DNA of 64,000 bases, taken from an uncultured Aquimarina sp. Lineage in GTDB: Bacteria; Bacteroidota; Bacteroidia; Flavobacteriales; Flavobacteriaceae. The position numbers and the translations under genes were made by a program. The stretch's first letter is position 1. The number at the start of each line of letters is the position of its first letter. The notes below the pieces were generated by a model. It did not search any database, had not been told where the DNA came from, and worked only from the letters and a program-made list of their open reading frames with translations. Location of the stretch: the NCBI GenBank assembly GCA_947497175.1, contig CANMFM010000004.1:682001-746000 (forward strand). The letters run 5' to 3'. Below, one piece after another: positions 1 to 45,131 of this stretch.

Positions 1-931
1 GCCAATTCATCCATTCTCCTTCATAAGCATACCATAGTACCCCTTTGAAAATGTCAATTTTTTGACATACTGCCACTCCTTTTTCTGTTTGAAGTTTTAT
101 TTCTGTTTTTGGAAAACTATTTAGTGCATCAATGTAAGCGTCCAATTCATAATTAAGACAACATTTTAGTTTACCACACTGACCAGCAAGCTTTTGTGGA
201 TTTAAAGACAATTGTTGGTATCGGGCTGCACTTGTATTTACAGATCTAAAATCAGTGAGCCATGTAGAACAACACAATTCGCGCCCACAAGATCCAATAC
301 CCCCAAGTCGGGCTGCCTCTTGTCTAAAACCAACCTGACGCATCTCGATACGTGTGCTAAATTCATGAGCAAACTCCTTGATTAATTGTCTGAAATCTAC
401 ACGTTCTTCGGCGGTATAATAGAACGTTGCCTTTGAACCATCTCCTTGAAATTCTATATCAGAAATTTTCATTTGCAAATCGAGTCGTATGGCAATTTCT
501 CTGGCCCGAACTTTCATTGCTTCTTCTTTATCTCTAGACTTTTGCCAGATATCTATATCTTTTTGAGATGCTTTTCGATATACTTTTTTTACGTCTTCAC
601 TATCTACCTCAACCTTCTTTTTTTTCATCTGTATCCTTACTAGCTCACCAGTAAGAGAAACAATGCCCACATCATGACCGGGAGAAGCTTCTGTAGCCAC
701 TATATCCCCAATACTCAACGAAAGATTTTCGGTATTCTTAAAGAAACTTTTTCTACCATTTTTAAATCGTATCTCAACACACGAAAAAGGTATAGCGCCA
801 CTGGGAAGTGACATGTTTGACAACCAATCAAAAACTGTTAATTTATTACAACCATCGGTACCACAGGTACCATTATTTTTGCATCCTTTTGGTTGTCCGT
901 CTTTTCCGGAGGAACAACTACTACACCCCAT
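1..931 (-). CDS. ricT: RicT/YaaT-family PSP1 domain protein (3' end outside window)
   Basis: About 310 codons are present, read leftward from an ATG at 931; the 3' end runs off the window. The N-terminus is Cys-rich (CSSC, then three more Cys within 25 residues). The PSP1 core carries the family Cys pairs CGRELCC and CGKLKCC. In Bacillus, RicT forms an iron-sulfur complex with RicA and RicF that affects RNase Y-dependent mRNA processing. Bacteroidetes homologues are conserved but their role is less clear, so the symbol marks family membership. In several flavobacteria the gene lies beside gldH and a DNA polymerase III delta' gene; those neighbours would be outside this window. Confidence 0.88.
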   Translation of the reverse strand, partial: MGCSSCSSGKDGQPKGCKNNGTCGTDGCNKLTVFDWLSNMSLPSGAIPFSCVEIRFKNGRKSFFKNTENLSLSIGDIVATEASPGHDVGIVSLTGELVRIQMKKKKVEVDSEDVKKVYRKASQKDIDIWQKSRDKEEAMKVRAREIAIRLDLQMKISDIEFQGDGSKATFYYTAEERVDFRQLIKEFAHEFSTRIEMRQVGFRQEAARLGGIGSCGRELCCSTWLTDFRSVNTSAARYQQLSLNPQKLAGQCGKLKCCLNYELDAYIDALNSFPKTEIKLQTEKGVAVCQKIDIFKGVLWYAYEGEWMNW

Positions 932-1030
932 ATTTTCTTATATATTGAAATTTGTCTGTGATTATAATCACAACAAATATGGTTCTTACTACGGTTAGAA
1001 ATATAATCTATTTCTAACATCTTAATTGTT

Positions 1031-1069
1031 AAAGATACTATGAAAAAAATTATCTGCCATAGTATCTTT
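1031..1069 (-). terminator. Possible terminator downstream of trhO
   Basis: A 12-bp perfect stem (1031-1042 with 1058-1069) and a 15-nt loop lie 13 bp past the trhO stop. There is no good T-run on the minus strand, so this may be a stabilising 3' hairpin rather than a classical intrinsic terminator. Confidence 0.4.
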
Positions 1070-1081
1070 GGCATTTTACCT

Positions 1082-2113
1082 TTACTGCTTGTATTTCAAC
1101 ACTTCAGAACGGCCTTTTTTAAAGATTTTATTACTGTTTCCTTTGCCTTTTCTTAGTGCTTTTTGTTCTTCAAACGGTAATCGGTTTATTTCCATACACT
1201 CTGTAGAACAACAATTTTCCATTTTTGTTGCACACGCCGAACATTGTATAAATAAAAGATGGCATGCTTCATTTTCACAATTTACATGTGTATCACATGG
1301 GTTACCACATTGATGACAACTTGCAATTACATCATCTGAAATTCGTTCTGATCGTCTATGATCAAAAACAAAGTTTTTTCCCAAAAATTTATTTTCTAAA
1401 CCTTGTTCTTCAACTTGTCTGGCATATTCGATTATACCTCCTTCTAATTGAAATACATTTTTAAACCCTTTGTGTTTATAGTAGGCACTGGCTTTTTCAC
1501 ATCGGATTCCACCTGTGCAATACATTACTAGTTTTTTATCTTCTTTATGATCTTTAAGATCTTCTTCGATACTATCTAAGGAATCTCTGAAGGTATCCAC
1601 ATCAGGAGTAACCGCGCCTTTAAAATGACCTATTTCGCTCTCATAATGATTGCGCATATCCACCAATACAGTATCTGGGTCTTCTATAAGCTCATTAAAT
1701 TTTGAAGCATCAACATGAACGCCCTTATTAGTAACATCAAAAGCGCCATCATCTAACCCGTCTGCAACTATTTTATGTCTGACCTTGACTTTAAGTTTTA
1801 AGAAGGATTTTGCATCCTGTTCTCTGGCAATATTTAAACGTACATTTTCTAAAAACGAGATACTATCGAGGTGTCTTTTAAAGGCTTCAAAGTTTGGTGC
1901 CGGAACTGATAATTGACCGTTTATCCCTTCTCTAGCTACATAAATTCGCCCAAGAACATCTAATTCATCCCAATGAATAAAAAGGTGATTTCTGAAAATT
2001 TCAGGATTTCCAATATGTGCGTATTTGTAGAAAGATAGCGTTAGCCGGTCGGTACCTGCCTCGTCGATAAGTGCTGCTCTTTCTTTTGCACTTAATTTAT
2101 TGTACAGTTGCAT
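1082..2113 (-). CDS. trhO: tRNA uridine(34) hydroxylase, rhodanese-like (TrhO/YceA)
   Basis: The 343-residue protein has the TrhO layout: an N-terminal acylphosphatase-like domain (about 20-120), a rhodanese domain (about 130-235) with the active-site loop CTGGIRCEK (C199, C205), and a Cys-rich C-terminal region with CxxC pairs. TrhO makes 5-hydroxyuridine at the wobble position of tRNAs in an oxygen-dependent route. The gene stands alone, between the RicT-family gene and a long non-coding stretch. Its upstream region has no Shine-Dalgarno sequence. A very strong hairpin lies 100 bp upstream of the start, so its promoter is either inside that 100 bp or the hairpin acts as an attenuator. Confidence 0.95.
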   Translation of the reverse strand: MQLYNKLSAKERAALIDEAGTDRLTLSFYKYAHIGNPEIFRNHLFIHWDELDVLGRIYVAREGINGQLSVPAPNFEAFKRHLDSISFLENVRLNIAREQDAKSFLKLKVKVRHKIVADGLDDGAFDVTNKGVHVDASKFNELIEDPDTVLVDMRNHYESEIGHFKGAVTPDVDTFRDSLDSIEEDLKDHKEDKKLVMYCTGGIRCEKASAYYKHKGFKNVFQLEGGIIEYARQVEEQGLENKFLGKNFVFDHRRSERISDDVIASCHQCGNPCDTHVNCENEACHLLFIQCSACATKMENCCSTECMEINRLPFEEQKALRKGKGNSNKIFKKGRSEVLKYKQ

Positions 2114-2215
2114 GCTATACTAATGTTTTAAGTTAAGAGAAATTATTTGTTGCAAAAATACAAATAGTGGCATGATATGCAAACCCCTTCCTTATTTCTT
2201 CGAGATTGTAGATAT

Positions 2216-2262
2216 AAAAGAAGAAGAGCGTTTCAAAGGTTTTGAAACGCTCTTCTTCTTTT
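2216..2262 (-). terminator. Very strong bidirectional terminator hairpin
   Basis: A perfect 22-bp stem (2216-2237 with 2241-2262) and a 3-nt loop are flanked by A and T runs, the layout of a strong bidirectional intrinsic terminator. No protein gene ends into it from either side: trhO starts downstream on the minus strand, and nothing recognisable lies just upstream. Confidence 0.75.
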
Positions 2263-2500
2263 TTTTGGGGTCTTTAGTTACTAATTTTTTTGGGCTATCC
2301 GTTCGGGGGCAAAATTTGATACTCTCTTTAGTTCGTAGATTTGGGTCTGTCACTAATGTCCTCACATCTAATTTAATCCCAGATATTCTAAAAACGAAGT
2401 GCTTTTCTTATTATCGTCATAATTGTCAAATCACTATGCTAATGGAACATCTTTGTCTTTCAATAACAATACTAATATAGAAAATATTTTAGATTAAATG

Positions 2501-2508
2501 CAAATATA
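2501..2508 (-). promoter_or_regulatory. Bacteroidetes -7 box candidate on minus strand
   Basis: TATATTTG matches the TAnnTTTG core. No TTG was found at the usual 17-19 nt upstream spacing, so support rests on the core alone. A transcript from here would run to the hairpin at 2216-2262, about 280 nt, without a convincing protein. The rest of 2114-2640 holds nothing else I can recognise. Confidence 0.3.
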
Positions 2509-2642
2509 ATCGATAAAATACACAATATTTTAACATTTTAACTTTAAAATTAATAAAGGATGACTTTTCAACATCACCCCTACATGTTTTATATGGCTCG
2601 GCATTAGTATGTATTGTGGCGCAAACTTTATTTAAAAATCAT

Positions 2643-2678
2643 AAAAAATGCCTTGAACTTACATTCAAGGCATTTTTT
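2643..2678 (-). terminator. Terminator after the 28-codon peptide ORF
   Basis: A perfect 15-bp stem (2643-2657 with 2664-2678), a 6-nt loop and T/A runs on both sides. It lies about 50 bp past the stop of the small ORF at 2729-2815, which makes that ORF look like a discrete transcription unit. Confidence 0.7.
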
Positions 2679-2728
2679 GGCCAATTCGTTACTTATTTAT
2701 TTAACGATAAAAAAATAAAGTAACGAAG

Positions 2729-2815
2729 CTAGCCTCCTTCGACCATACAATTACTAATTGTAGTAGTTGCACAGCCATCAAGATTGTGTTTTATGACTCT
2801 TTTAAGAAATTTCAT
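2729..2815 (-). CDS. Small 28-residue peptide with two Cys and terminal Gly-Gly
   Basis: ATG at 2815, stop at 2729. The start is preceded by AAGGAG (2825-2830), 9 to 10 nt upstream, which is unusual in a window where most genes lack a Shine-Dalgarno sequence. The peptide begins with a basic, hydrophobic stretch (MKFLKRVIKH). It then has Cys15 and Cys23 separated by a Thr/Ser-rich segment, and ends VEGG. A terminator follows closely. Size, Cys and Thr/Ser content suggest a secreted or modified peptide, but no maturation enzyme is in the window and I recognise no family. It could also be a leader peptide or a chance ORF. Confidence 0.45.
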   Translation of the reverse strand: MKFLKRVIKHNLDGCATTTISNCMVEGG

Positions 2816-3145
2816 AGTCACGCTCTCCTTCAAATTTGTTCAAGTTTGCTTTATCTATAGATGCTAAAAAAATTGATGGGTTGCGTCGAGTTCAAAAAAT
2901 ATCAGTTATGTTTTGGCATTTCCTGAAAGTGGTTTCTTTATTTATGGTTTCGTTAATGTGGTTCACAAATAAACATGTCTTTCATTTATCGTTCTTCATA
3001 ACCCTCCTTTTTGAGTGATGAAATTACCAATCTAATTCTATGAACACCCGTTCTTCTAAAGCCTTTTTGTGTTGTTAATAATCATTTTAGAATCCATATC
3101 CTAACTACAAAAAGAAATAGTACTTTAGCAAAAAGTTAATTATCA
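2816..3145. other. Region between the small peptide ORF and recA
   Basis: No sizeable gene seen. On the minus strand, AAAGGAGGG (3002-3010) sits just before an ATG at 2999 that opens a 5-codon ORF (2982-2999). Its stop overlaps the ATG of a second micro-ORF of 10 codons starting at 2985. The recA promoter must lie toward 3145, but I could not pick a convincing core. Confidence 0.4.
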
Positions 3146-4183
3146 ATGTCAAATCCCGATATATTTGAACAACAAATGAGTACAGAGAAAGACGCAAAAT
3201 TAAAAGCCTTAAAACTTACCTTAGATAAATTAGATAAAACCTACGGAAAAGGTACCGTAATGAAGATGAGTGACAGTGCTGTTGAAGAAGTAGATGTGAT
3301 CCCAACAGGATCTCTTGGTCTTGACTTAGCACTAGGAGTTGGAGGGTATCCCCGGGGAAGAGTTATTGAAATATATGGTCCAGAATCTTCTGGTAAAACC
3401 ACACTAACGCTACATGCTATTGCACAAGCCCAAAAAGCAGGGGGTATTGCTGCTTTTATAGATGCAGAGCATGCTTTTGATCGTTTTTATGCAGAAAAAT
3501 TAGGGGTAGAAATAGACAATCTTATTATCTCTCAGCCTGATCATGGAGAACAGGCTTTGGAAATTGCGGATAACTTAATTCGTTCTGGAGCTATAGATAT
3601 CATTGTAATAGATTCTGTAGCGGCATTAACACCTAAAAGTGAAATTGAAGGAGAAATGGGAGATTCTAAAATGGGTCTTCATGCAAGATTAATGTCGCAG
3701 GCCCTCAGAAAATTAACAAGCTCGATTAGTAAGACAAACTGTACTGTTATTTTTATCAATCAGCTGCGCGAAAAGATTGGAGTGATGTTTGGGAATCCCG
3801 AAACAACTACTGGAGGTAATGCACTAAAGTTTTATGCTTCTGTACGTCTTGATATTCGCCGTTCTACACAAATAAAAGACAGTAATAGTGAAGTAATAGG
3901 AAATAAAACCCGTGTTAAAGTTGTAAAAAACAAAGTAGCACCCCCATTCAGAACTGCCGAGTTTGATATCATGTACGGAGAAGGAATTTCTAAAAATGGA
4001 GAAATTATTGATATAGGTGTCGACTATGAAATCGTGAAAAAGAGCGGTTCATGGTTTAGTTATCAGGACACAAAACTTGGACAAGGACGAGATGCTGTAA
4101 AAGGTTTATTAAATGACAACCCGGAACTCATGGAAGAGCTTGAAGAAAAAATCAAAGAAGCTATAAAGATTATAAAAGAATAA
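3146..4183 (+). CDS. recA: Recombinase RecA
   Basis: The 345-residue protein has RecA hallmarks: Walker [10 protein letters not shown] (about 75-83), Walker B-like [10 protein letters not shown], the [15 protein letters not shown] segment with the L1 region, the [21 protein letters not shown] loop L2, and the C-terminal Lys-rich domain. It drives homologous pairing and strand exchange and promotes LexA-type autocleavage where a LexA exists. The start ATG has no Shine-Dalgarno sequence. The gene stands alone, followed by a clear terminator. The N-terminus is slightly longer than in Escherichia coli. Confidence 0.99.
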
Positions 4184-4204
4184 AATTTTATTAATAAAAT
4201 TCAT

Positions 4205-4233
4205 AAAATCCCGATCCTTCGGGATTTTTTTTT
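4205..4233 (+). terminator. recA terminator
   Basis: 10-bp perfect stem (4205-4214 with 4219-4228), TCCT loop, followed by a run of nine T, 20 bp past the recA stop. Confidence 0.85.
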
Positions 4234-4309
4234 ACCTTCTAAGCAACCAAATTGATCATCAAACATCTACATATTAGGTTCATTATGTTGTTTCTCAAAA
4301 CCCCAAAAT

Positions 4310-4726
4310 ATGAGAAAGATAAAAATTGTATTAGCTTTTTTCCTGATGTACGGCCTTTTTGGTTGCTCTGGAGATGATAACACAACATTCTTCTATGAAT
4401 TGGTACCCATAGAAGAAGTCACGCTCCCATCAGAATTTAATAGTAACGAAACGTACCGAATTACAGTTTCTTACTTCAGGCCATCCGATTGTCATGCTTT
4501 TAACGGGTTTGACTATAGTAGATTTGAAAATGAACGTACCGTAGCAGTAGTTAATGTAGTTGTTGACAGAGAGAATTGTAGCGCCATAGAACGATTAGAT
4601 CTTATTGATGAATCTTTTGATTTTCTTGTTGGTCAAGAAGAATCCTATATCTTTAGATTTTGGCAAGGAAAAAACGAAAATGGTGATAATCAGTTTTTAA
4701 CGGTAGAAGTGCCTGTAGTACAATAA
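4310..4726 (+). CDS. Hypothetical lipoprotein upstream of an ECF sigma gene
   Basis: 138 residues with a hydrophobic N-terminus and lipobox LFGC (Cys19) followed by SGDD, as in exported Bacteroidetes lipoproteins. The mature part looks all-beta and has two Cys (SDC and ENC) that could form a disulfide. It lies 27 bp upstream of the sigma factor gene on the same strand, so it may share its transcript. I do not recognise the family. Confidence 0.75.
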   Translation: MRKIKIVLAFFLMYGLFGCSGDDNTTFFYELVPIEEVTLPSEFNSNETYRITVSYFRPSDCHAFNGFDYSRFENERTVAVVNVVVDRENCSAIERLDLIDESFDFLVGQEESYIFRFWQGKNENGDNQFLTVEVPVVQ

Positions 4727-4753
4727 TAGTATACATATCAAAAAAAGTTATTT

Positions 4754-5308
4754 GTGGGGTTGGATCAACTCATAAAAAAATGTAAGAAAAAAAACAGCAA
4801 GGCGCAGGAACAATTGTATAGATTATACAGCAGTAAATTATTTTCTATCTGCTTAAAATATTCTAGTGATTATCCTGGCGCAGAAGACACCTTGCAAGAT
4901 GCTTTTATTACGATTTTTGATAAAATCAATCAATACAAAGGTCAAGGTTCTTTTGAAGGTTGGATAAAACGAATAACTATTAATACAGCTTTACAGAAAT
5001 ATCGAAAACAAAAAGTTTTTGATATTATAAATGAAGAACAGATTGAAGAAGTAGAAGTTGAAATCAACGAAGAAAACATCTCATTAGATTATCTTCTTAA
5101 GATTATACAACAACTGCCTGATAGATATAGATTAGTCTTTACACTTTATGTGTTAGATGGCTTTTCACATAAAGAGATTGCAAAAATGTTAGAAATATCG
5201 ATCGGCACTTCTAAATCTAACCTAGCAAGAGCACGATATATTTTAAAAGAAAAAATTGAAACCAACCAAGAAGAGCACTATGTTCGATCAATTGAAGGAC
5301 AAAGATGA
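4754..5308 (+). CDS. ECF-type RNA polymerase sigma factor
   Basis: 184 residues with sigma-70 region 2 (about 20-90, YPGAEDTLQDAFITIF and FEGWIKRITINTALQKYRKQK) and region 4 (about 110-165, LPDRYRLVFTLYVLDGFSHKEIAKML then GTSKSNLARAR). The start is GTG at 4754; a TTG two codons later is an alternative. The 3' end overlaps the next gene by 4 nt (ATGA), so the two are probably translationally coupled. The partner starts with a short cytoplasmic segment and a membrane helix, suggesting it is the anti-sigma or membrane sensor for this factor. Confidence 0.93.
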   Translation: MGLDQLIKKCKKKNSKAQEQLYRLYSSKLFSICLKYSSDYPGAEDTLQDAFITIFDKINQYKGQGSFEGWIKRITINTALQKYRKQKVFDIINEEQIEEVEVEINEENISLDYLLKIIQQLPDRYRLVFTLYVLDGFSHKEIAKMLEISIGTSKSNLARARYILKEKIETNQEEHYVRSIEGQR

Positions 5309-6912
5309 ATGATAAGAAAACTATAGACCGTTTATTTCAGGAGAAGTTCAAAAATTTTGAAGTTACTCCCGATGAAACGGTTTGGGAAAAAATAAAAGCG
5401 CGACAAGAAAATGGTCGTAAAAGAGCGATACTTTTGCCACTGTGGTATAAAGTTTCGGGAGTAGCCGTGGCAATACTGCTTATTCTAACCATAGGATACG
5501 TATCATTTGATAATGAATCAACTCTGGAAGAAACGATTGTAATTAAATCGAATGATATTGAAGAAAATCTGGTTGACTCCAAAAAATTTCCAGATAAAAC
5601 TTTTAAAACTACAGATCCCTCGAAAGAGATTATAGTAGTTACCAAAGAAGAAAAAGAGACCACCGCTGAGATTGAGAAATCTAATAATGATAATGCAAGT
5701 TCTGAATCTGGTCAGGGCAACTATTATACTCCAACACAAACAAAAGTAAATGCCGTTACTGTAACTCAAAAAGAAAAAGTATCAATATCTGATGCACCGG
5801 TTAAAAAACAAGATTTAACTCCATCGACAAATTCTTCTAATCAAGATGTTGTTGCCCATAGCAATCAAACAGAGAATCTAATAGACGGTACTCCTGCACA
5901 GCATAAAGAAAATGTAGAGGCGAATACACTTGCCAATAACACATCTATACCTGGTAAAAAAACTGAAAACACCTCTGAAATCCAAAAAGAAAATTCTCGG
6001 TACGAGACTCCACAAAAAAATCAAAAGAAACATCATACATCACACATTGCAGAGAATATACCCTTAGAAACAAACCGAAACCAACCTGAAGAAAATAAAG
6101 ATACTATAGAAACAAAAGAAAAAACTGATAAGAAATCTATTTTTGAGGCTATCGATGAAAAAGACGAGGTGATTGCAACGGATGCGAAATCTTCAAAAAA
6201 ATGGAATATTGCTCCTAACGTAGCGCCTGTATATTATAATGTTATCGGTAGCGGCTCCTCTATTGATCCACAATTTGCTGATAACACCAAAGACGGAGAA
6301 GTCAACCTTAGTTATGGTGTGCATATTTCTTATACCATAAATGAGAGACTAAGTGTACGATCTGGAGTAAGCAAAGTTGATCTTAGCTATGGGACACAAG
6401 ATGTTGCTTTTGCAGCCTCTACTAATGGTCAAAATCTACAAAGTATTGATTATAGTCCTAATGCAGAGGCTATTTTGGTTTCAGATATAGGAAACCAAAA
6501 CAATAATGTTACCTCTGATTTTACACGTGCTCCCGTTAGTCAAACTCAAAATGTGGGATTGCTTAATCAGCGTATTGGCTATATCGAGGTTCCAATGGAA
6601 ATGAAATATGCATTAGTCAATAAAAAATTTGGGGTTAATATGATCGGAGGGGTTAGTACCTTATTTTTACAAAATAATGAGATTTCTATCGAGGCAGGTG
6701 ATTTCGAATCTCCTGTAGGGGAGGCAAACAATCTAAATGAAGTTAGTTTTAGCGGTAATATTGGTCTGGGTTTAGATTATAAATTCACAAAGCAACTTCA
6801 ACTTAACCTTGAACCTATTTTTAAGTATCAGTTTAATGCCTTTAATGGCAATGCAGAAAATTTCAGACCTTACTATTTTGGTATATATACCGGTATTAGT
6901 ATTAAGTTTTAA
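5305..6912 (+). CDS. Membrane-anchored protein with C-terminal outer-membrane barrel; candidate anti-sigma/sensor
   Basis: The 535-residue protein has four parts. There is a cytoplasmic head of about 45 residues (DRLFQEKFKNFEVTPDETVW). One transmembrane helix (about 46-66) follows, with no cleavage site. Next is a 225-residue low-complexity linker rich in Lys, Glu, Asn, Thr and Ser. A region of about 240 residues (about 295-535) rich in alternating aromatic/hydrophobic strands ends in Phe, as porin-like barrels do. The coupled sigma gene suggests the head binds the sigma factor. That role is inferred; the domain order is seen. If folded as predicted, it would span both membranes. A plain porin-like annotation would miss the N-terminal head. 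Confidence 0.75.
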   Translation: MNDKKTIDRLFQEKFKNFEVTPDETVWEKIKARQENGRKRAILLPLWYKVSGVAVAILLILTIGYVSFDNESTLEETIVIKSNDIEENLVDSKKFPDKTFKTTDPSKEIIVVTKEEKETTAEIEKSNNDNASSESGQGNYYTPTQTKVNAVTVTQKEKVSISDAPVKKQDLTPSTNSSNQDVVAHSNQTENLIDGTPAQHKENVEANTLANNTSIPGKKTENTSEIQKENSRYETPQKNQKKHHTSHIAENIPLETNRNQPEENKDTIETKEKTDKKSIFEAIDEKDEVIATDAKSSKKWNIAPNVAPVYYNVIGSGSSIDPQFADNTKDGEVNLSYGVHISYTINERLSVRSGVSKVDLSYGTQDVAFAASTNGQNLQSIDYSPNAEAILVSDIGNQNNNVTSDFTRAPVSQTQNVGLLNQRIGYIEVPMEMKYALVNKKFGVNMIGGVSTLFLQNNEISIEAGDFESPVGEANNLNEVSFSGNIGLGLDYKFTKQLQLNLEPIFKYQFNAFNGNAENFRPYYFGIYTGISIKF

Positions 6913-7035
6913 AGCACACACCATTTTATAGCTGGTCATCTTATTAATGTTAAGTGCACTAATGAAGAAAACCTTTTTTTGTGAGAATTGGGGGGTATTA
7001 TTCTTGCATTGTCAGCGTCTGTATTAATCAGACTG

Positions 7036-9003
7036 TCATGCTTTTGGTAATGTTATACAAAAAGTACTTCCTTCTCTCAATTTACTTTTTACACTGATTT
7101 CACCGTTATTAAGCGCTATAAGCTCCTTACATATCTTTAATCCAAGACCGGTTCCTGTTTCATGCTGAGTGCCTCTTGTTGTAAATGCATCCTCGGCAAA
7201 AAGCTTCTTTAGATTTTCTTGGGCAATACCTACTCCGGTATCTTTAAAACAAATTTCAAAATGCTCTTCTGTTTCTATGGATGATAGCGTTATTGAATCA
7301 CCAGCGTTACAAAATTTTATTGCATTTGCTATCAGGTTCTGGGCCACAATAGCAACCATGTCTTTATCAGCAAAAACTAGTGTAGGTTTTAATGCGTTGG
7401 TAAGCTTGATGCCTTTTGAGGCAGCTTGTGGTTCAAAAAAAGTAAACTTACTGGCAATAACCTCATTAATATCAAAAGCAGAAGGGTTAGCAGTAAGCTC
7501 TTTCATTTGTGATTTTGACCAATTCAATAGGTTATTCAATAAGATTGATGTTTGATGTGTTCTATTTGCTAGTAGCGGAACAATTTGCTGAAATTCTTCT
7601 GTCGAGATTGCGTTATCTTTTAGCAAATTTAAACTACCATCCAATCCGTGAATTTCATTTTTGAGATCATGAGAAATAATTGAAAACAATTTATTTTTGA
7701 CTTGGTTGGATTCATTTAGTTGATTAACATATCTTTTCCGTTCTTTTCTGGATTTAACTACAAAACCTAAGAATATCAATATAATAAGTGTGATCCCAAC
7801 ACTTATGTATGTAAATATTCTATACCTAAACAACTTATCTTTACTTTGTTGTTCTCTTTGTTCTTGTGCTTCGATAAGCTTGAGCTGCTCCATCTCTGAT
7901 TTGAAACGAGCTTCAGCTAATTCTATTTTTTGAGCAGTTTCATCAGATGTATTTTGATCTGATAACTGTTGGTATTTTTTTTGCCACTCATAGGCTTCCG
8001 AAAAATTTCTTCTGGCAGAGTCAAGTTTTGCCGAATATTCATAATTTGTAAGAAGTAATGGATCCAGCTTTAATTTTTTGATTTCTTTTCGGGCAACCTT
8101 TAAGAGACTCTCTGCTTTCTTAAAATTCTTAGTTCTTATCGCAATACGTCCCAGTTCCTGTTTTGCACTTGCTGCTATACTTTCATTTTTTGATTTTTTT
8201 GCAGCCGTATATGAAGAATCATAATATTTTCTTGATTTTTGATAATCTTTATCTATAAATGCTAAAGCTCCTAACCTATTATATGCAGAAGCAATACTGG
8301 CGATGTTTTTATTCTTTTTGCTAATAACTAAGGATTCCTGGAGTAAGACCTTTGCACTATCTAACTTTTTAAGATCGATATACATTAAAGCAAGATTGTT
8401 TAAAGAAGCACCAATATTTTCTAATTTATTTTTTCGTTTAAGGGCTAAAGACTTAATATAATATTCTTCTGCCAATTTAAAATCATTAAGGGAGGAGTAC
8501 ACATTTCCAATATTATTATAGGTACTTGCAAGTACTGTGCTATCCTTTACTCTTGTAAAATATAAATTAGCCTCCAATAAATAATTAATGGCGTTTTCAA
8601 AGTTACCTCGTTTTTGCTCAATGGTCGATTTGTTATTACTAATTATAGCCAATCCTCTTTGGTAATTGGCCAACTTATAAAAAATTATGGCCTTATCGTA
8701 ATTATAGAATGCCTTGAGGTGCTTATTGGTTAAATTATAAATATTTCCAATTTGATTATAAACATCTCCGGCACCTTTATCATACTTAATTTTCTTTGCA
8801 AGTGATCGCAATTTATTTTCATAGGATAAAGCGACATCGTATTCTTTTTGTTTCCAAATAGTTTCAAAATATTTTATTGCTTTATCAAAGGCAGCAGTAT
8901 CTTTGGGTTTACGGATTTTCAGAAGAACGCTATCTAAAGATTGTTGTTGCGAAAAGCATAATGAACTCACCACAAAGAGTAAGAAAAAACAGGTTTTTTT
9001 CAT
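7036..9003 (-). CDS. TPR-domain sensor histidine kinase
   Basis: 655 residues from the ATG at 9003, chosen because it opens a signal peptide (MKKTCFFLLFVVSSLCFSQ); the longer reading frame adds an unsupported leader. Periplasmic TPR repeats fill about 30-330, followed by a Glu/Gln-rich coiled coil and one membrane helix (about 400-420). The HisKA segment is FSIISHDLKNEIHG with phospho-acceptor His445, and the HATPase domain has the N box (QNLIANAIKF), DTGVGI and GTGLGL. There is no receiver domain and no response regulator gene nearby, so it is an orphan kinase. TPR sensor kinases are common in Bacteroidetes. Confidence 0.93.
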   Translation of the reverse strand: MKKTCFFLLFVVSSLCFSQQQSLDSVLLKIRKPKDTAAFDKAIKYFETIWKQKEYDVALSYENKLRSLAKKIKYDKGAGDVYNQIGNIYNLTNKHLKAFYNYDKAIIFYKLANYQRGLAIISNNKSTIEQKRGNFENAINYLLEANLYFTRVKDSTVLASTYNNIGNVYSSLNDFKLAEEYYIKSLALKRKNKLENIGASLNNLALMYIDLKKLDSAKVLLQESLVISKKNKNIASIASAYNRLGALAFIDKDYQKSRKYYDSSYTAAKKSKNESIAASAKQELGRIAIRTKNFKKAESLLKVARKEIKKLKLDPLLLTNYEYSAKLDSARRNFSEAYEWQKKYQQLSDQNTSDETAQKIELAEARFKSEMEQLKLIEAQEQREQQSKDKLFRYRIFTYISVGITLIILIFLGFVVKSRKERKRYVNQLNESNQVKNKLFSIISHDLKNEIHGLDGSLNLLKDNAISTEEFQQIVPLLANRTHQTSILLNNLLNWSKSQMKELTANPSAFDINEVIASKFTFFEPQAASKGIKLTNALKPTLVFADKDMVAIVAQNLIANAIKFCNAGDSITLSSIETEEHFEICFKDTGVGIAQENLKKLFAEDAFTTRGTQHETGTGLGLKICKELIALNNGEISVKSKLREGSTFCITLPKA

Positions 9004-9203
9004 AAATTCTATTTTGGGGGAATAGATTAAATGCGTTTTATGTCCGCAAAATACCAAAATTATAACTAAATTACACTAATTAGTAATACTATTCTTACAA
9101 TTCTACTTGTTTTTACGGTAAATCAATAAGAAATAAAGGTATTATATATAGCCAGGCACATACACTACAAAAATTATTACATACTGATTATCTGTCCTAT
9201 TCT

Positions 9204-9947
9204 CTATTTGTAGTTGTCTGCCTCAAGAGTTTTTAAAATAATATCCCGTGTCTTCTCTTTTAATTCTTTTTTATTATCCTGAGTTAATCCTTCTGTAGCT
9301 ATTTCTTTATGAATATATGCTCTCATTTTTCCAGGACTACCACTAAAAAAAACATAAGAAAATCGCTTTTTATTATCGAAAAAAGTTAAAGGAAGTATTG
9401 GAATATGGTGATCGATCGCCAAGCGAAAAGCACCATCCATAAATTGATCTAAAAGTACGGTTTGATCATCGGGCACTCCTCCTTCAGGAAAAATACAGAT
9501 GCTCGTACCATTATGTAACCTGGCATGAGCTCGGTCAAAAACTTCTTTTCGGCTTTTTTGACTATTACGATCTACCAATATACAGGTACGTTTGTAGAAA
9601 AATCCAAAAATTGGAATCTTTGCCAATTCTTTCTTACCCACAAATACAAAAGGGTGTTTAACGCAATGTAGCATAAACATAATATCGGTCATCGAAGTAT
9701 GATTAGCGACCACCATATAACTCTTGTCAAGATCGGGTACGGCTTCTCTTTTTACTTTTGGAACAAACCCCATACCATACAATACAATTCTGGCCCAAAA
9801 TCTGGCTACCACAAAAAACTGAGGATACCATTGTTCTCTTGAGGTAAGTACCAACAACACAGGAAACATAATAATAATAGGTACCCCCATGAGCACATAA
9901 AACCAAATGCGCCATAAAAGAATCAGTAATTTTTTTAACACTGGCAT
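9204..9947 (-). CDS. 1-acyl-sn-glycerol-3-phosphate acyltransferase (PlsC family)
   Basis: About 247 residues from the ATG at 9947; a GTG at 9962 is less likely. N-terminal hydrophobic helices (about 8-35) are followed by the acyltransferase motifs NHTSMTD (His83 and Asp88 of HX4D) and FPEGGVPDD. It acylates lysophosphatidic acid to phosphatidic acid at the inner membrane, or acts on a related acyl acceptor. It stands alone between the kinase gene and divergent trpS. Confidence 0.92.
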   Translation of the reverse strand: MPVLKKLLILLWRIWFYVLMGVPIIIMFPVLLVLTSREQWYPQFFVVARFWARIVLYGMGFVPKVKREAVPDLDKSYMVVANHTSMTDIMFMLHCVKHPFVFVGKKELAKIPIFGFFYKRTCILVDRNSQKSRKEVFDRAHARLHNGTSICIFPEGGVPDDQTVLLDQFMDGAFRLAIDHHIPILPLTFFDNKKRFSYVFFSGSPGKMRAYIHKEIATEGLTQDNKKELKEKTRDIILKTLEADNYK

Positions 9948-10188
9948 GACCCAAAAATACACAATTGGTTTGAGCTTTATAAAAAAGTATAGATGAGTTG
10001 ATAAAAAAAATTACCTTTGCGGGATTAGCAATACTAGGTGTTGGAAGTATATAGTAGACAGAAAGCAGTTGATAACGTTTATTTCTGCACGCCGTATACT
10101 ATCAACTACATGATTTACTAAATTTTAAAAACTAAAAGTTACTTAACCTAAGCTAGGTTTAAGCTACAATAAAGATTATTATAAAACT

Positions 10189-11157
10189 ATGTCCAGAATT
10201 CTAACAGGAGTACAAAGCACTGGGACTCCACATTTAGGAAACTTACTAGGAGCAATCATCCCGGCAATTGAAATGGCCAATCGACCAGAAAACGAATCGT
10301 TTTTATTTATTGCCGATATGCATTCGCTCACACAGATTAAAGATGCCAAGATCTTGCGGGAGAACACTTACTCTACTGCAGCTGCCTGGTTAGCTTTTGG
10401 CTTGGATATAGAAAAGACCGTTTTTTACCGACAAAGTGATATCCCACAAGTAACCGAACTTTCGTGGTACTTGAGTTGCTTTTTCCCTTATCAAAGATTA
10501 ACTCTTGCTCATTCTTTTAAGGATAAAGCAGATCGTTTAGAAGATGTTAATGCAGGATTATTTACTTATCCAATGCTTATGGCAGCCGATATCCTATTGT
10601 ACGATGCCGAGATAGTCCCAGTGGGAAAAGACCAAACACAGCACCTTGAGATGACACGAGATGTAGTTTCAAGAATGCATACCCAGGTAGGAGAAGTATT
10701 TATATTGCCAGAGATTCAGTTACAAAAAGAAACGATGTATGTACCTGGAACAGATGGTGGAAAAATGAGTAAATCTAAAGGTAATATTATCAACCTCTTT
10801 TTACCGGATAAGAAGCTACGCAAGCAAATTATGTCTATAGAAACCGATAGTACACCGCTAGAAGACCCTAAAGACCCTGATGCTTGTAACGTATTTGCTT
10901 TATATTCTTTAATTGCCACACCCAAACAACAAGAACAAATGCGTCAGAATTACCTTGGTGGTAATTATGGTTATGGTCATGCAAAACAGGCTTTATTCGA
11001 ATTACTCATCGAAAAATTTGCTAAAGAACGTGAGCGATACAATTATTATATAGATAACCTCAACGAAGTAGATCGAGCATTAGCTATTGGTGCCTCAAAG
11101 GCGGCTGTAGTGGCAGATAAAGTATTGGCCAGAGTACGTAAAAAAGTTGGTTATTAG
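10189..11157 (+). CDS. trpS: Tryptophanyl-tRNA synthetase
   Basis: 322 residues, class I synthetase. The HIGH-type motif is TPHLGN (13-18), the KMSKS loop is intact (KMSKSKGN, about 192-199), and the middle has LMAADILLYDAEIVPVGKDQ, typical of TrpRS. It charges tRNA-Trp. A TACCTTTG core at about 10012-10019 is a possible promoter, leaving a 160-nt leader; that leader contains an imperfect inverted repeat (10067-10074 with 10100-10107). A strong terminator follows. Confidence 0.98.
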   Translation: MSRILTGVQSTGTPHLGNLLGAIIPAIEMANRPENESFLFIADMHSLTQIKDAKILRENTYSTAAAWLAFGLDIEKTVFYRQSDIPQVTELSWYLSCFFPYQRLTLAHSFKDKADRLEDVNAGLFTYPMLMAADILLYDAEIVPVGKDQTQHLEMTRDVVSRMHTQVGEVFILPEIQLQKETMYVPGTDGGKMSKSKGNIINLFLPDKKLRKQIMSIETDSTPLEDPKDPDACNVFALYSLIATPKQQEQMRQNYLGGNYGYGHAKQALFELLIEKFAKERERYNYYIDNLNEVDRALAIGASKAAVVADKVLARVRKKVGY

Positions 11158-11185
11158 GTAAACATCCAGAAGTATACCCTATCGC

Positions 11186-11224
11186 ACTCTATAATCTTCT
11201 TAAAGAAGATTATAGAGTTTTTTT
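11186..11224 (+). terminator. trpS terminator
   Basis: 14-bp perfect stem (11186-11199 with 11205-11218), 5-nt loop, followed by a run of T to about 11224. Confidence 0.85.
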
Positions 11225-11510
11225 CTGAATATAGCGTCTGCAAAATTTATTTCCCTTAAAAATGTCATTGTGAGGACAAAAGTCTACGATCGCTCTGATT
11301 CATATTTTCCCTTTTACCCTCGTTTTTTTCCTTCTCAGCGATTAAAAATTGAGTACAAAATAAGTTTGCCGGTAATTAGCAGTATCAAAACCGAAGAATC
11401 ATGAGGTTATTTCTAAAACCACACATCTTAAATCGTACTATGGAGCAAAACATACTGCTCTTTAAATTTATACCAATATTTAAACAATTAATACTAAAAA
11501 CTTATTCATT
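11225..11510. other. Gap after trpS with a degenerate dispersed-repeat fragment
   Basis: No gene seen. At about 11264-11290 is TGTCATTGTGAGGAC, which resembles the start of short intergenic repeats common in Bacteroidetes. The rest is AT-rich leader sequence for the small lipoprotein gene. Confidence 0.35.
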
Positions 11511-11693
11511 ATGAAACATACGAAATTATGGCTTGTACTGGTCTTATTTGCTACAATCACTTTGAGCTGCGAAGATGATGATTATGGAAACGATAGTCCA
11601 CCGCCTGCAGCTCCTCAAGAAACGAATGCTGTTAGTAGCAAAGTAAGCTACGGTCCATTAGAAGAAAAAATATTGAGATATACACTAATATAA
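11511..11693 (+). CDS. Small lipoprotein, 60 residues
   Basis: MKHTKLWLVL opens a signal peptide with lipobox TLSC (Cys20), followed by EDDDYGND and a Pro/Ala-rich stretch. The mature part is only about 40 residues, so it is either a true small surface lipoprotein or the 5' remnant of a larger one. A terminator at 11781-11808 argues for a discrete short transcript. No family recognised. Confidence 0.6.
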   Translation: MKHTKLWLVLVLFATITLSCEDDDYGNDSPPPAAPQETNAVSSKVSYGPLEEKILRYTLI

Positions 11694-12116
11694 TAAGTAA
11701 AAAATAGATAAAAGAAATATACGTATTCATGTAACGTATACTAGGAGTAGTTCATGTTGTATTACCCCACAAGGTTAGCCAAGCCTGTACATTGTGTACA
11801 GGCTTTTTACGTTGATAACACAAGGTAACCCATTTAAAATCAACAAAGTAATCTGTACTTGCTTTCACATTTATGTAAGAATTCTTATATTCGCCCTCAT
11901 ACTTCGTGAATACGCCCCAAATCGTGCTCACCACACAGTATCGTAATAATATTTCATTATTTGTTATATAGTATAGATTTTGCATCACTATATCAAAACA
12001 TGTTTTATCTCTATTTATATGATAACATTTTATTTGATGATCGCATCAATAGTAAAGAATAAGTATCACTTTGTATAAAAAGATTAAATTTTAAAAATTA
12101 CAATCCTTAACAGCGT
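11694..12116. other. Gap between two lipoprotein genes
   Basis: It holds the terminator at 11781-11808. The rest to 12116 is AT-rich with no convincing ORF; a 78-codon minus-strand frame reads through the terminator and is not supported. The promoter of the 12117 gene should lie here, but no clear core was found. Confidence 0.4.
11781..11808 (+). terminator. Terminator of small lipoprotein unit
   Basis: 11-bp perfect stem (11781-11791 with 11795-11805), TTG loop, then T-rich sequence. The stem GCCTGTAC resembles the one at 13318-13343. Confidence 0.7.
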
Positions 12117-44680: not shown

Positions 44681-45055
44681 TTATATTTTTTCTAATGTAA
44701 TCTCCAGATTCTCAGTGATCACATGACAAATATCCTTGTCTACTTTTACCGCAGTACTTGTATAGGTTTGGTATCCATTTTTGCTTACTTCAATACTATA
44801 GGTTCCTGTGCGCTCATAGGCTCCAAAAAAGGTATTATTATCTGAAAAACTTGTGAGTGTTTCTTTATAATCTCCATCGGTAATTACTATCTCAACACCT
44901 TCAACCAAAAACATCTCATCACTGGCGTCTTTTACTCTTACTTCTATACCAGGTCTCGCTTCTAGCGTACAAAAAACAGGATCTTCGGTTTTATCATCAT
45001 CAGTGTTACATGCCCAAAAGATAACGATCATACTTACTACAATTACTCTTTTCAT
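44681..45055 (-). CDS. Small lipoprotein with carboxypeptidase-regulatory-like beta domain
   Basis: 124 residues. Signal peptide with lipobox FWAC (Cys16) and acidic NTDDDKTED. The rest is a beta-sandwich with GVEIVITDGDY and YSIEVSKNGYQTYTS, typical of CarboxypepD_reg-like domains on surface lipoproteins. Role unknown. Confidence 0.8.
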   Translation of the reverse strand: MKRVIVVSMIVIFWACNTDDDKTEDPVFCTLEARPGIEVRVKDASDEMFLVEGVEIVITDGDYKETLTSFSDNNTFFGAYERTGTYSIEVSKNGYQTYTSTAVKVDKDICHVITENLEITLEKI

Positions 45056-45131
45056 TTCTATACAAATTATGCATTACTACTTGTATAAAAGATGAAATTT
45101 ATCCTTTATGGTTGCGTTTTATATTTATTTT

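Follow-up and report, generated by a model that had tools for sequence, protein, structure and literature searches.

A likely Das-Dma pair downstream of recA in Flavobacteriaceae, with a recurrent promoter-like motif and candidate lipoprotein targets

Can a single protein chain report the state of the outer membrane to a sigma factor in the cytoplasm, and which genes would answer? The question is raised by a 64,000-nt stretch of DNA from an uncultured Aquimarina (hereafter the window), in which a first-pass annotation had noticed an ECF sigma gene overlapping by 4 nt the gene of a 535-residue protein that ends in Phe. It had proposed that this protein spans from a head at the inner membrane to a barrel in the outer membrane. 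Coordinates, lengths, overlap and terminal residue were all confirmed, and domains, a structural model and relatives support the one-chain span and its coupling to the sigma factor. The operon begins one gene before the sigma gene, which corrects the earlier two-gene view:

4243-4269, + strand: GCAACC-N15-CATCTA, a promoter-like site of ECF type ahead of the lipoprotein-sigma-dma operon, an exact match (upstream alignment)
4310-4726, + strand: small lipoprotein gene, 138 aa, the operon's first gene (BLAST, alignment, model)
4754-5308, + strand: ECF sigma factor, das2-like, 184 aa, GTG start (Pfam; reciprocal best match with das2-type sigma)
5305-6912, + strand: putative anti-sigma factor, a Dma-type envelope-spanning protein, 535 aa (Pfam, AlphaFold2 model, Foldseek, relatives)

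Very likely, in our view, these genes include a flavobacterial Das-Dma pair whose sigma factor transcribes its own operon and, as further targets, small lipoprotein genes.

How widely is the arrangement kept? A scan of genome contigs gave 48 relative loci (counts of 49 below are these plus the window), the closest relative of the 535-residue protein being that of Aquimarina mytili at 74% identity. Nearly all relatives bear flavobacterial names in their titles, one being titled only Bacteroidia, and the genera named presumably belong to Flavobacteriaceae. The same pair thus occurs elsewhere, with the sigma ORF immediately 5' of the dma ORF in all 48 loci and an overlap of exactly 4 nt in 29. 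recA lies upstream of the pair in 47 of the 48, the exception being locus L048, and mostly a small lipoprotein gene stands in between. A profile search found the head in 83 of 100 sampled Flavobacteriaceae genomes and, across the phylum, in 58 of 296 genomes at E 0.001. Its commonness in Flavobacteriaceae and the place of the pair downstream of recA are new here.

The operon lipoprotein has a lipobox Cys at position 19 followed by acidic residues, and Cys61 and Cys90 are invariant in the alignment (37 of 46 sequences). BLAST found a homologue in 45 of the 48 loci and none in L036, L038 and L050; judged by gene content, the lipoprotein is not obligatory to the system. In L048 the homologue sits 3' of the dma gene. 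Other lipoprotein-like ORFs take up the space before the sigma gene in L036 and L048, and the sigma gene of L038 and L050 has the promoter-like site before it, with no recognised lipoprotein between the two. The model of the lipoprotein is all-beta (mean pLDDT 88.8), the sequence has no Pfam match, and no solved structure matched the model at E 0.001 or better, so the fold tells nothing about function.

Is this a new kind of system? Dma proteins are a recent discovery, described in gut Bacteroides. In the accessible part of the published account, Dma2 joins head, helix, disordered tether and barrel in one chain, dma2 adjoins das2 and genes with DUF4943 and DUF4858, and deletion of dma2 in B. 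thetaiotaomicron has an effect that depends on das2 (PMC13088901). The window protein follows that published plan (PMC13088901), so the idea of such a chain is not new. By Pfam, AlphaFold2 and Foldseek the window protein is predicted to have the single-chain plan; Dma genes are also marked by an adjacent ECF21-type sigma gene, and here a sigma gene adjoins whose das2-type kinship comes from reciprocal best matches. DUF4943, matched in 3 of 296 phylum genomes, led to the das2/dma2-type gene order in two Bacteroides-like genomes. Against these, the window sigma picked the das2-type sigma as the best of 14 matches in one and the best of 18 in the other, and the das2-type sigma picked the window sigma as the best of 16. 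A second sigma-dma pair in Bacteroides-like genomes adjoins a NigD gene and looks like the Dma1 locus, a name we infer; Dma1 is reportedly the subject of a 2024 PNAS paper.

Searches with single sequences, by BLAST and hmmsearch, brought up no convincing match between the dma proteins. When profiles were compared with those of four Bacteroides-type Dma proteins, E was 1e-7 for the heads and 2.6e-7 for the barrels, with a control run for the heads only; with two Bacteroides-type proteins the values were 1.1e-4 and 9.2e-5. In the control, five partners of other sigma genes from the same genome were set against the head profile, and two matched at E 3e-6 and 6.8e-7, the other three at E 0.0038 or worse. 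The head is therefore a wider sigma-partner domain, and the assignment to Dma rests on the whole plan together with the sigma factor, not on the head match alone. Both systems have the predicted plan of a head, one membrane helix, a disordered tether and a barrel at the C-terminus, encoded beside an ECF sigma gene, and both have lipoprotein-type genes nearby (DUF4943 and NigD in the Dma loci). The window protein differs in its length (535 aa against 356-414 aa) and its last residue (Phe against Tyr), and its locus differs in lying beside recA and in having a lipoprotein gene without a recognised domain before the sigma gene.

Which promoter would the sigma factor read? All 49 loci have a slightly relaxed form of GCAACC-N15-CATCTA ahead of the operon, on the + strand; with both strands counted, these loci contain 86 matches to it and none to the reversed pattern. 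The exact motif has 86 matches against 4 reversed in 27 genomes of the genus and is present in 25 of them, the two that lack it being 78% and 55% complete. In the window's own genome alone, with one mismatch allowed, 9 sites stand against 7 reversed, which is no excess. Among the 100 family genomes 72 contain the exact motif: 70 of the 83 with the head and 2 of the 17 without it (Fisher p 1.5e-8 on a hand-tallied split), a contrast of which genome size may explain part, since most genomes lacking the head are small and, in that group, sites and reversed matches are equally many (2 vs 2). Two das2-type operons carry GCAGCA-N15-CGTCTA, differing in the boxes and identical, by eye, in the spacer; the das1-type loci inspected have no such site. 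Does the motif instead belong to another ECF sigma factor, for which the das-dma operon is only one target among others? The genome has at least 16 sigma-like matches, and two genomes without the head have motif sites; yet the motif tracks the head across the 100 genomes and resembles the site before das2-type operons, and we regard this alternative as unlikely.

The CGTCTA box of the das2-type operons also resembles the SM6 motif of F. psychrophilum. In the available text SM6 has a CGT box and goes with T9SS genes, and on both counts it is not equated with GCAACC-N15-CATCTA (PMC9723704). Three motif matches inside the dma genes of L019, L020 and L043 were not accepted as promoters. A literature search, with most subscription papers beyond its reach, showed no report of the motif or of the flavobacterial pair among the entries listed. 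The kind of system is already known; the flavobacterial promoter motif and a candidate regulon are what is added here.

What would the promoter serve? Besides the operon itself, the window holds the following sites and candidate targets:

2858-2884, - strand: second exact motif copy, pointing away from recA (motif scan)
2640-2884, - strand: putative divergent transcript from this copy, between the TrhO gene and recA (motif, helices)
2729-2815, - strand: 28-codon ORF in the structured transcript downstream of this copy (ORF; motif upstream)
45089-45115, - strand: one-mismatch promoter-like site preceding a lipoprotein gene (motif scan)
44681-45055, - strand: small lipoprotein gene, candidate target, 124 aa (one-mismatch motif upstream)

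Across genomes, exact copies recur in front of small lipoprotein genes, the gene of a small membrane protein and the divergent structured transcript. For a census, 74 distinct sites out of the 86 in the genus were inspected. A script classed 29 sites as preceding lipoproteins, 8 as preceding lipoproteins of the dma operon, 15 as preceding small membrane proteins and 9 as preceding peptides, with 13 others; inspection by eye then reassigned three sites to the operon lipoproteins, two to the peptides and one to the membrane proteins. In the final tally the operon lipoprotein and the 28-aa ORF have 11 sites each, a one-helix protein has 16 and other lipoproteins have 24, with 12 sites unassigned. 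With the first three classes removed, 24 of 36 genes behind sites are lipoproteins, against 9 of 54 window ORFs flagged by the same test, two of which are candidate targets themselves; orthologues in related genomes are not independent, and for this reason we withhold a p value. In 31 of the 37 script-flagged lipoproteins at least two of the six residues that follow the Cys are acidic. These residues resemble the lipoprotein export signals SDDDD and SDDFE, which the accessible part of PMC5080379 gives for B. fragilis and F. johnsoniae, and suggest that these lipoproteins may be surface-exposed.

The one-helix protein, 54-61 aa, follows 16 of the 74 sites, and the copy in the window's own genome is upstream of mutS2. 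At L053 (1501-1727) a 57-aa one-helix protein has an exact motif copy before it and mutS2 after it; it has no NCBIfam match. The 124-aa lipoprotein matches CarboxypepD_reg at E 9.4e-7, below the cut-off. A further small lipoprotein gene stands behind a one-mismatch copy in L057.

The divergent motif site occurs at its place beside recA in 33 of the 49 loci. In 15 Aquimarina-type sequences, picked by the analyst, the two helices of the transcript have 95.9% of cells paired (92.8% in shuffles). Both sides have changed in 12 cells, where shuffles give 4.0. Because the 28-codon ORF contains the first helix, that helix is also under coding constraint. An Rfam search over 2000-5400 listed 20 matches, all below their gathering scores. 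The transcript may act as peptide, RNA or both.

How might the sigma factor itself be held in check? Its identity is plain from Pfam (Sigma70_r2, E 1.5e-13; Sigma70_r4_2, E 9.1e-18), and a second feature marks the start of its gene:

4754-4773, + strand: hairpin over the sigma start codon (GTG; codon 6 CTC) (folding and codon statistics)

At the aligned position the start codon is GTG in 39 of 48 sequences, TTG in 9 and ATG in 0, a count that leaves out L048, where the start is unclear, and in which L016 has an in-frame ATG a few codons upstream. In L048, a Tenacibaculum locus, no ATG, GTG or TTG was seen by eye at the aligned start (4400-4560), and ATT is possible. From codon usage, CTC would be expected at codon 6 in 2.4 of the 48 sequences; it stands there in 43. 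In most of the 48 relatives this rare CTC and the non-ATG start pair into a hairpin over the start, with a mean energy of -5.25 kcal/mol against -2.35 kcal/mol in synonymous redraws; singly, only 20 of the 48 sequences fall within the lowest 5% of redraws, and L036 is unfolded. Could the hairpin be the main brake on the sigma factor, and the head of a Dma-type partner activate or escort it rather than hold it back? Computation does not fix the sign of control. Dma2, in the accessible part of its description, acts as a negative regulator (PMC13088901), and this argues against an activating head, which we think quite improbable.

Does the partner really span the envelope? Its parts are assigned as follows:

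5305-5442, + strand: putative sigma-binding head, residues 1-46 (conservation; adjoining sigma ORF)
5443-5502, + strand: membrane helix, residues 47-66 (AlphaFold2 model, alignment)
5503-6201, + strand: disordered tether, residues 67-299, with a short helix at 279-292 (pLDDT below 50 over 67-276)
6202-6909, + strand: 8-strand beta barrel, residues 300-535, last residue Phe (OMP_b-brl_2, model, Foldseek)

AlphaFold2, run on an alignment of the 49 proteins, gave a mean pLDDT of 59.6 and pTM 0.47, the mean being low because the tether is disordered. The model reproduces the parts expected of 5305-6912: two head helices (6-15 and 24-36) at modest confidence (pLDDT near 60), the helix at 47-66, a tether with pLDDT below 50 over 67-276 and a helix at 279-292, and a barrel of eight long strands (300-314, 329-344, 349-371, 416-438, 442-464, 480-493, 498-510 and 521-534) with pLDDT of about 90 in most blocks and a dip at 400-411. 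The low-complexity linker of the first-pass annotation stands, its length of 225 residues giving way to 210 (67-276) or 233 (67-299). Among solved structures Foldseek placed OmpA at the top (E 1.1e-7), with NspA, Ail, OmpW, OprF and larger barrels also among the matches. OMP_b-brl_2 matches residues 300-500 at 27.2 bits, barely above the cut-off of 27, and a C-terminal Phe closes all 49 proteins. Across these proteins the head varies only from 44 to 48 residues and the tether from 152 to 300 (median 219); mean column conservation is 70% in the head, the best-conserved part, 57% in the helix, 30% over 67-276 and 64% in the barrel.

Might the C-terminal beta domain instead be a soluble periplasmic sensor on an inner-membrane anti-sigma factor, an arrangement that shorter relatives sharing this head may have? 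Among the best 30 head loci the C-terminal parts, sorted by eye, vary from barrel-like ones to frames of about 250-280 residues beside sigma genes. For the window protein, residues 300-534 are modelled as an 8-strand barrel, and the eight long strands, aromatic C-terminus and OmpA-type and barrel-family matches led us to reject a soluble domain, a reading with very little probability left. Least probable of all is that the protein is a plain outer-membrane barrel, its signal peptide cleaved off, whose gene just happens to share the sigma operon, for although OMP_b-brl_2 barrels are commonplace (nine matches in the genome), the best-conserved 46-residue head precedes the helix and, in the 30 best-scoring phylum loci (window included), follows directly on a sigma ORF in all 30 whatever the C-terminal part. 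The two findings named beforehand as telling against the span, a cleaved signal peptide and a periplasmic C-terminal fold, are thus replaced by a conserved head and a modelled barrel. In L144 and L151 the head beside the sigma gene is fused, by eye, to an apparent von Willebrand type A domain and not to a barrel.

How might such a Das-Dma pair work? Residues 1-46 would hold the ECF sigma factor at the inner membrane, where helix 47-66 would anchor the chain; the disordered tether would cross the periplasm and the 8-strand barrel would sit in the outer membrane. The trigger at the barrel could be failed assembly, or a partner, for example the co-transcribed lipoprotein, could be gained or lost. 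The change would travel along the chain, probably through protein cleavage, and free the sigma factor, which would then transcribe its own operon and the small lipoprotein genes from GCAACC-N15-CATCTA promoters. The signal may be barrel assembly, lipoprotein export or a ligand; for Dma2, glycan sensing is put forward as a hypothesis in the accessible part of PMC13088901.

A broader reading, possible but tentative, is that of a widespread outer-membrane response in Flavobacteriaceae. Together, barrel and co-transcribed surface lipoprotein would keep watch on barrel assembly or on the export of lipoproteins. Once released, the sigma factor would use a single promoter type to turn on small lipoproteins of the surface, a small protein of the inner membrane and the divergent structured RNA or 28-aa peptide, while the start-codon hairpin would restrain translation of the sigma factor. 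The conserved promoter, the bounded list of candidate targets and the operon lipoprotein offer handles on what the barrel detects, and with the head in 83 of 100 sampled genomes these handles apply to a widespread family.

FecR-type surface signalling links a TonB-dependent receptor, an anti-sigma factor and an ECF sigma factor. Like the window pair it relays from the outer membrane to a cytoplasmic sigma factor, but it uses separate parts, whereas the window protein joins barrel and head in one chain: Pfam found no FecR domain in it at E up to 10, and no TonB-dependent receptor gene was seen by eye among the ORFs at 1-12000. In most relatives, though, the operon also encodes a lipoprotein with a surface-export-like signal, and the proposal that no separate receptor is needed may therefore be too simple. 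RseA-sigmaE, the envelope stress response of E. coli, would be alike if our reading of the regulon is right, since in both the targets face the envelope and a small transcript shares their promoter type; RseA has no barrel, and sigmaE belongs to another sigma group, with a different promoter and different targets.

After the operon, on the - strand, lies a sensor histidine kinase gene (7036-9057) whose best NCBIfam match is FimS, below the cut-off; a homologue occupies the same place in four of the 48 loci (L003, L004, L005 and L016).
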